40,799 nt of DNA from Halorussus litoreus (GTDB taxonomy: Archaea > Halobacteriota > Halobacteria > Halobacteriales > Haladaptataceae). The DNA is taken from contig NZ_KZ859508.1 of assembly GCF_003382685.1 (NCBI RefSeq), positions 80,901 to 121,699 on the forward strand. Reading direction: 5' to 3'. Under the pieces are notes generated by a model that saw only the letters and a list, made by a program, of their open reading frames with translations, was not told the origin of the DNA and searched no databases. Position numbers and translations under genes: made by a program. Below are positions 12,203 through 33,797 of the stretch, one piece after another. The stretch's first letter is position 1, and each line of letters opens with the position of its first letter.

Positions 12203-12472
12203 CGCTAGCTATCGCTTGAGCCTAGGCGTGACCGCACCCGCAACTGCACAGCACCGCGACTGCACCGCATCCTCGAACCTCCCCAGCCTCCTGCGTTGCT
12301 CGGTCTCCGCTTCGCTCCGACCTGCGCTACTCGTCCCTCGCACGCTATGGCGCGGCGCGCGAACGCGCCGCGCCCAAACGCGCGCCGGGCCAGAAGAATG
12401 GGTCAGCGCACGCCGTGGCAGCAGGCCGGTCAGCACACGCTGTGGTGGAAATAGATGCCAGCGCACGCCGTG
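12203..12472 (-). repeat. Repeat half-element E2 (type A, inverted)
   Basis: Begins with the core GCTAGCTATCGCTTGAGCC. It continues AGGCGTGACCGC, then a CACAGCACCGCGACTGCACCGC tract and CCTCCCCAGCCTCCTGCG, and ends with outer motifs CAGCGCACGCCGTG repeated (12409-12424 and 12457-12472). The order is the reverse complement of E1. The two face each other across lsm-rpl37e. Confidence 0.7.
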
Positions 12473-24792: not shown

Positions 24793-25004
24793 CTCGGCGC
24801 GTGCTGGCTTGTTTTTCCTCTGGCGCGCCTACTGATTCTTCCAACCCGGCGCGTGCTGGCGCGAGTTCATCTCGCGCCATCTCGTGCGAGGGACGAGGAC
24901 CGCAGGTCGGAGCGAAGCGGAGACCGAGGACCGCAGGAGGCTGGGGAGGTCTGAGGCTCGCTGTTGCGGTCGCGGTCACGCCGAGGCGCAAGCAATAGCT
25001 AGCT
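24793..25004 (+). repeat. Repeat half-element E4 (type A)
   Basis: Two outer motifs (CTCGGCGCGTGCTGGC at 24793 and CCCGGCGCGTGCTGGCGCG near 24845) precede GGGACGAGGACCGCAGG, GCAGGAGGCTGGGGAGG, TTGCGGTCGCGGTCACGCC and the core GAGGCGCAAGCAATAGCTAGCT. Next to the core it matches E7 (inverted) with one difference over about 33 nt. Confidence 0.75.
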
Positions 25005-25040
25005 TCTTGCTCTTTTCGTCGACTGTTCTGTGAGAGTCTA

Positions 25041-25240
25041 AGCTAGCTACTGCCGAGGCATATGAGAGACCGCCCAGCACAGCACCGCGACCGCACCGCA
25101 GCCTCGAACCTCCCCAGCCTCCTGCGCTTCTCGGCCACCGTCGGAGCAAGCTCCGACGAGCCCTCGGTCGCTGCGCTCCCGAGGACTACGGCCTGCGATG
25201 CTCGTCCCTCGCGCGCGTTGCTCGCGCGCGCCAGGTTCTG
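25041..25240 (-). repeat. Repeat half-element E5 (type B, inverted)
   Basis: Core AGCTAGCTACTGCC, then GAGGCATATGAGAGACCGC, CAGCACAGCACCGCGACCGC, CCTCCCCAGCCTCCTGCG, a hairpin (CGTCGGAGC 25139-25147 / GCTCCGACG 25150-25158, also found in E1) and a CGCGCG-rich outer end. The core-proximal sequence is the B type shared with E6 (inverted) and distinct from A-type halves. Confidence 0.75.
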
Positions 25241-33323: not shown

Positions 33324-33510
33324 CCGGCGCGCGCGAGCAACGCGCGCGAGGGACGAGCATCGCAACGAAGTGAGAAGCGCAGGAGGCTGGGGAGGACGAG
33401 GGACGGTGCGGTCGCGGTACTGTGCGGTCGCGGTACTGTGCGGTCGCGGTACTGTGCGGTCGCGGTACTGTGCGGTTGCGGTTTCTCATATGCTTCGGCA
33501 GTAGCTAGCT
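33324..33510 (+). repeat. Repeat half-element E6 (type B)
   Basis: Outer CCGGCGCGCGCGAGCAACGCGCGCGAGGGACGAG-type start (33324 onward), GCGCAGGAGGCTGGGGAGG, then the tandem 16-mer array (33407-33481), TTTCTCATATGCTTCG and the core GCAGTAGCTAGCT (33498-33510). Core-proximally it is the reverse complement of E5 with about two differences over 33 nt. Confidence 0.75.
33407..33481 (+). repeat. Tandem 16-bp repeat array
   Basis: Four exact copies of TGCGGTCGCGGTACTG (33407-33422, 33423-33438, 33439-33454, 33455-33470) and a partial fifth (33471-33481, with one change). It lies inside half-element E6. Other E halves carry shorter, degenerate forms of the same unit. Confidence 0.9.
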
Positions 33511-33543
33511 TCGCTACTGATCCCTCTACACGAAGTTATTCTG

Positions 33544-33797
33544 AGCTAGCTACTGCTTGCGCCTCGGCGTGACCGCACCGCACAGCACCGCAACCGCGAC
33601 GGCACCGCAACGGCGGGCCTCTCAGACCTCCCCAGCCTCGCCGGCCACCTCAACGCTGTTGGACAACCCGCGTCCGACGAGCCTGCGCTTGGTTCCCTCG
33701 CACAGACGCGGCCGCCTCCCTCGCGCGCTAGGGCGTGGCGCGCAAGCGCGCCGCGCCCAAACGCGCGCCGGGAGTCAAGACGGGCCAGCGCACGAAC
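33544..33797 (-). repeat. Repeat half-element E7 (type A, inverted)
   Basis: Core AGCTAGCTACTGC (33544-33556, the exact reverse complement of 33498-33510), then TTGCGCCTCGGCGTGACCGC, ACCGCACAGCACCGCAACCGC, ACCTCCCCAGCCTCG and a CGCGCG-rich outer part ending in CCAGCGCACGAACGG. It completes the E6/E7 pair. Confidence 0.75.

Follow-up and report, generated by a model that had tools for sequence, protein, structure and literature searches.

A REPIN-like family of non-coding composite inverted repeats in the haloarchaeal genus Halorussus

The window, a stretch of 40,799 nucleotides of Halorussus litoreus, contains an HD-domain gene on the reverse strand and, divergent from it, a LEA_2-domain gene on the forward strand, and most of the gap between them is made up of a composite inverted repeat (E2). 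Its parts, and those of two other copies in the window (E3 and E1), are as follows.

24795-25235, unstranded: composite element E2 (type I/A arm, core, spacer, core, B/type II arm)
24795-24859, forward: E2 left-arm outer tail, two copies of CGGCGCGTGCTGG with T-rich sequence between them
24858-24878, forward: E2 type I outer hairpin, GGCGCGAGTTCATCTCGCGCC
24933-24949, forward: E2 left-arm conserved G-rich motif, GCAGGAGGCTGGGGAGG
24972-24995, forward: E2 inner motif of type A, GCGGTCACGCCGAGGCGCAAGCAA
24996-25003, forward: E2 left core, TAGCTAGC
25004-25041, unstranded: E2 spacer, 38 nt from TAGCTAGC to GCTAGCTA, 36 between the AGCTAGCT 8-mers
25042-25049, reverse: E2 right core, GCTAGCTA (inverted)
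25050-25073, reverse: E2 inner motif of type B, reading CTGCCGAGGCATATGAGAGACCGC on the forward strand
25109-25125, reverse: E2 right-arm conserved G-rich motif
25136-25185, reverse: E2 double-hairpin module (hairpin with loop GAGCGCAGCGA, GGCTC, second hairpin, GGTG)
25210-25232, reverse: E2 type II outer hairpin, GGCGCGCGCGAGCAACGCGCGCG on the reverse strand
33327-33770, unstranded: composite element E3, made up of a type II/B arm, a first core (33502-33509), a spacer (33510-33544), a second core (33545-33552) and an A/type I arm
12204-12460, reverse: single half-element E1, with core (12204-12211), type A motif, type I outer hairpin and tail
12278-12294, reverse: E1 G-rich motif

The sequence-only reading had described two halves facing each other across 36 nt, and this layout is borne out: AGCTAGCT is found at 24997-25004 and, after a gap of exactly 36 nt, at 25041-25048, with a left half of type A (GCGGTCACGCCGAGGCGC, 24972-24989) and a right half of type B (GCATATGAG..ACCGC, 25058-25073). 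The copy at 33.3-33.8 kb, which had been read as the same halves in reverse order, does run B then A, with AGCTAGCT at 33503-33510 and 33544-33551 and 33 nt between the two 8-mers. In the whole window AGCTAGCT occurs 4 times for 0.15 expected, and none of 100 shuffles contained 4. E3 is located between two reverse-strand genes, and E1 between the gene for ribosomal protein L37e and purF.

Genome-wide, the pattern TAGCTAGC-N(22-52)-GCTAGCTA has been found at 43 loci in the 3.84-Mb genome of H. litoreus, for 0 with the reversed control. Across 17 congeners such strict pairs number 0-15 per genome; several congeners have no strict pair and the G-rich motif once or never. Among the 22 genomes outside Halorussus that were searched, no strict pair was found. 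All these counts come from pattern searches and fetched stretches, with one genome per species and a draft assembly, and those of the strict core undercount decayed copies. In the genome collection, 23 of the 26 matches to the core 17-mer belong to Halorussus or strain LT46 records, the others being 2 in haloarchaeal MAG contigs and one, likely by chance, in Mesorhizobium. The motif GCAGGAGGCTGGGGAGG, at up to 2 mismatches, is present in 171 copies in the H. litoreus genome versus 9 for the reversed control. Taken alone, the G-rich unit extends to several genera of the order, with high numbers in one genus besides Halorussus, so that the arm probably predates the composite. All 41 examined pairs are intergenic, and their gene context, as given by the gene calls of a simple codon-usage script, is not consistent (22 tandem, 12 convergent and 7 divergent). 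A terminator- or promoter-specific role has been rejected for this lack of bias. Recent near-identical copies are absent, the best paralogue being 79% identical over 250 nt. Together the copies make up a family, specific to the genus, of non-coding composite inverted repeats, each of them one imperfect-palindrome element and not two chance neighbours.

From the outside to the core, an arm consists of an outer hairpin, optional hairpin modules, GGAGGCTGGGGAGG, GCGGT/GCTGT repeats, an inner A or B motif of about 18 nt, and TAGCTAGC. The outer hairpin is either of type I (GGCGCGTGCTGGCGCGA..TCGCGCC..CGCGCGAGG), often with a repeated tail such as the tandem tail that precedes E2 and other type I arms, or of type II (GGCGCGCGCGAGCAACGCGCGCGAGG). 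Two layers of left/right asymmetry have been detected with these classes, whose rules were written after the sequences had been seen. In the inner layer, 34 of 41 pairs set A against B, versus 20.7 +/- 3.2 expected under random re-pairing of arms (0 of 5000 permutations), and outer type I faces type II in 26 of 31 versus 15.6 expected (p=2e-4); the permutations treat loci as unrelated, and some of the signal may reflect descent of the loci from a single A-B composite, which would itself support a single element. The inner and outer layers are not significantly linked (Fisher p=0.23). Position by position, the arms of one locus differ more than re-paired arms at -18, -16, -14, -11 and -8 to -5 (z to -3.9), and positions -21, -17, -15, -10 and -4 are near-invariant. 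The C/A contrast at -14 is present in 12 of 12 pairs read in eight other species, though the motif sequences differ; the exceptions are H. halobius (G001), where it is missing in 4 of 4 pairs seen, and G016. The modal spacer of the family is 36/38 nt, and 18 of 41 loci have the length of E2. The sequence-only reading had proposed that the idea of a paired unit would fall if the halves stood mostly alone or in random order. Their order is clearly non-random, but the halves are not confined to pairs: single halves are found in the window itself, at 12.2-12.45 kb, and in several congeners that have few or no pairs. As a separate observation, tandem expansions of GGCTGGGGAGGTTTGA or GCGGT-type units have been seen in arms of H. 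litoreus (L025, L028) and H. halobius (L185, L190), which suggests slippage.

E2 is predicted to fold as one long branched hairpin (-246.7 kcal/mol), with z = -14.6 versus shuffles on one strand and -13.2 on the other. Throughout the family, the stems of the hairpin modules change while complementarity is kept, and loops and linkers stay. For example, 46 distinct versions of the type I outer hairpin have been listed, complementary in most cases, and in the double-hairpin module the loop and linkers are constant across copies and the stem sequences compensated. In one module, double-sided changes affect 4 of 9 stem pairs with perfect compensation, and module covariation is 0.325, a value reached by 0 of 500 shuffles, versus 0.116. 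Such covariation is compatible with either RNA or single-stranded DNA, and compensated stems could also arise by template switching. Perfect hairpins number 160 versus 28 with one mismatch, and the wobble mismatches (12 G.T versus 5 A.C) are only suggestive of the strand of a putative RNA. No structured RNA of Rfam was matched within the window at gathering score. The claim that the unit is one structured element, and not GC-rich debris, is strongly upheld by the non-random A/B pairing, the restricted spacer length, the covarying hairpins and the genomic positions common across species.

The age of these positions has been judged mainly by comparison with 1.2 Mb of H. halobius (L172-L231). At all ten pair loci with both flanks cleanly syntenic, an element is present in the same gap with its arms remodelled, one of the ten (L054) being a weak relic whose core scores no better than shuffled sequence. 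Orthologous cores differ at 19 of 160 bases (88% identity), a figure favoured somewhat by their having been picked as intact in H. litoreus, versus about 4-5 mismatches per 16 for the best of shuffled intervals. On the other hand, spacer identity is at the no-homology level, 0.51 between orthologous and 0.53 between non-orthologous loci. The partial or single-motif loci L263, L271, L273, L275 and L277 of H. litoreus also have an element at the corresponding place in H. halobius; L265 has none. Within the window, E3 has left relics at the same site in four congeners (H. halobius, G006, G009 and G011) and is old, and E1 is lineage-specific, being absent from the syntenic L37e-purF gap of congeners wherever that gap is readable. 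The two neighbours of E2 are not adjacent in the congeners read. The shared syntenic positions and the absences at E1 and L265 mean that most composites are inherited and that some copies are recent gains or repeated losses. The target-site duplications that the sequence-only reading had proposed to look for were sought at the two syntenic empty sites (E1 and L265), where the flanks are too diverged to place the ends; neither a duplication nor a clean insertion boundary was resolved, since changes between these species have saturated the intergenic DNA. At the E3 site of G011 (L286:867-1060), the right-arm core motif is repeated in tandem in place of a single copy.

The centre of the element has also changed between species, with inner motifs that differ at many loci. 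Most B arms of H. litoreus read CATATG or CATGTG, and most arms of H. halobius CATNGG or CATTTG. In addition, the A/B order relative to the flanking genes, compared by eye, is opposite in three of four informative orthologous loci (L046, L053 and L062; not L063). From these few loci and the non-linkage of the inner and outer layers, the centre apparently inverts by recombination between arms. Spacer similarity is equal both ways (-0.94 vs -0.97) and gives no evidence of inheritance in a fixed A-to-B orientation. Two further ideas about the centre were discarded: that the spacer is a guide or captured DNA, since the only matches of 19 spacers were to themselves and to spacers of other elements, and that the core region came from a virus, since no phage sequence matched it.

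REP-type repeats have been defined mainly from bacteria and are tied to Y1 transposases. REPINs are REP doublets forming hairpins, that is, extragenic inverted repeats around a spacer, in which length and hairpin capacity matter, compensatory changes are seen and singlets also occur (Bertels and Rainey, 2011; PMC3116915). The Halorussus element shares the inverted extragenic doublet over a spacer of restricted length (43 pairs; 41 of 41 intergenic) and, in its arm modules, the hairpin with compensatory changes, while the diagnostic inner positions mismatch within a locus instead. It differs in its arms, which are systematically non-identical and, being modular hairpin arrays of about 200 bp, far exceed REP sequences in length, and in that most testable positions are common to species. 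Moreover, no Y1 (RAYT) transposase was found with the PF01797 profile in H. litoreus or H. halobius, the two element-richest genomes, although the same search finds matches in several congeners and control genomes. Since its layout matches and the Y1 enzyme was not found in the two richest genomes, the element is described here as REPIN-like, working like a REPIN without being one. Other short transposase-free repeats, some with near-terminal palindromes, are the MITEs, PATEs and SMRs of the haloarchaeon Haloquadratum walsbyi (PMC3119063). By contrast with these, the most conserved motif is central in the Halorussus element, not terminal, an unsystematic look identified no terminal repeat in common with a transposon, and strain-specific insertions could not be shown. 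IS605-derived PATEs are marked by palindromes near both termini that are related to IS605-type ends; the Halorussus element has hairpins at both outer ends, any relation of which to IS605 elements would be putative. No annotated feature lies under the plasmid matches. The REP elements tagged GTAG or CGTC are likewise dispersed extragenic palindromes in many copies, and, going by their description, are set apart by their length of 20-40 bp (PMC3733652). Among the papers searched for the motifs and for haloarchaeal repeats, none describes the Halorussus element, which is apparently undescribed so far.

The reading we consider somewhat better than an even bet is that the element is non-autonomous and REPIN-like, spread in an ancestor, is now mostly inherited and has had its arms recombining since fixation. 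It would have spread through an enzyme acting in trans, which these genomes may no longer have; single-stranded DNA or RNA would fold it into a hairpin, the A/B mismatches giving its sides different identities, and a protein would most likely recognise the core pair. After fixation, the arms would have recombined with each other, inverting the centre and swapping hairpin modules, and this would account for the uncoupled inner and outer orientations and the inner motifs that differ among species. Copy numbers from 0 to 43 within the genus, together with gain or loss at E1 and L265, fit a spreading element. The mobilisation inferred in the sequence-only reading has support as history only; recent mobilisation is not supported, since ten of ten testable pair loci are occupied in H. 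halobius and the search for a Y1 transposase in the two richest genomes found none. For the same reasons, and given that near-identical copies are absent, it is very improbable that a Y1 (RAYT/IS200-type) transposase drives a REP/REPIN system that is active today, despite the REPIN layout of inverted doublets, length-constrained loop and compensatory changes (PMC3116915), and Y1/RAYT mobilisation was rejected. Against the preferred reading stand the lack of an identified mobilising enzyme, of target-site duplications or clean insertion boundaries and of near-identical copies, the missing contrast at -14 in H. halobius, and the conservation of the core, which could equally mean a host function.

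That function, a cis element beneficial to the host whose core pair is a binding site or whose hairpins act in RNA, with selection holding the positions, is possible though it remains the less expected outcome; 3'-end protection, transcription insulation and chromosome organisation are candidate roles. It is favoured by the positions common to species, by cores conserved beside spacers at no-homology level, by the very stable fold on both strands, and by a core CTAG kept despite a 3.6-fold depletion, 68 of 302 CTAGs (22%) in the H. halobius stretch being in core-like contexts. However, gene context is inconsistent, the window has no Rfam family, and the near-absence of pairs and G-rich motifs from several congeners makes the element dispensable in the genus. 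Neutral hairpin-prone debris, in which template switching perfects palindromes and gene conversion homogenises them with neither mobility nor function, would account for the many perfect hairpins, the tandem slippage in arms, the species-specific inner motifs and the housekeeping neighbours, but does not predict the A/B and I/II pairings, the narrow range of spacer lengths or an 8-bp core conserved beside a randomised spacer, and is unlikely. Quite unlikely, too, is a genome-wide system of heterotypic hairpin sites, with A/B arms and a CTAG-containing core pair, in which a putative Halorussus protein inverts or copies the centre, site and protein co-evolving so that inner motifs shift jointly within each species while positions stay. 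On balance, the preferred REPIN-like reading describes a hairpin element that is ancient, non-autonomous and quiet at present, and whose conserved core pair is probably recognised by a putative protein. Its significance lies in an archaeal family with the doublet-hairpin layout of REPs in genomes where Y1 was not found, to which are added a left/right asymmetry in two layers, covarying hairpins that can be swapped and positions inherited over long times. Its orthologous loci form a countable set on which one can ask if repeats of this kind are remnants of selfish DNA or elements of the host, and how copies scattered over a genome come to change in concert.

Several minor observations accompany these results. 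In the 1.2 Mb of H. halobius, CTAG is depleted 3.6-fold (302 vs 1095 expected) and GATC 3.9-fold (1122 vs 4353), and a CTAG orphan methylase is conserved in haloarchaea (PMC6471742). In the other genus rich in the G-rich unit (G058, G047 and G027; L105-L107), about 100 units are present per genome, and the single copy read (L105) has a different inner end (GGGTGGGACTCAAAGGGGCAGCC). Finally, a second dispersed haloarchaeal repeat, GGTGGGACTGAAAGGGGCCGCCCG..CGGGCGGGGGCTTTC, of which a literature search by sequence found no description, is present in other intergenic gaps and also beside G-rich arms, at L265:2150-2430, at L138 and L139 (the L37e-purF gap) and at L297.
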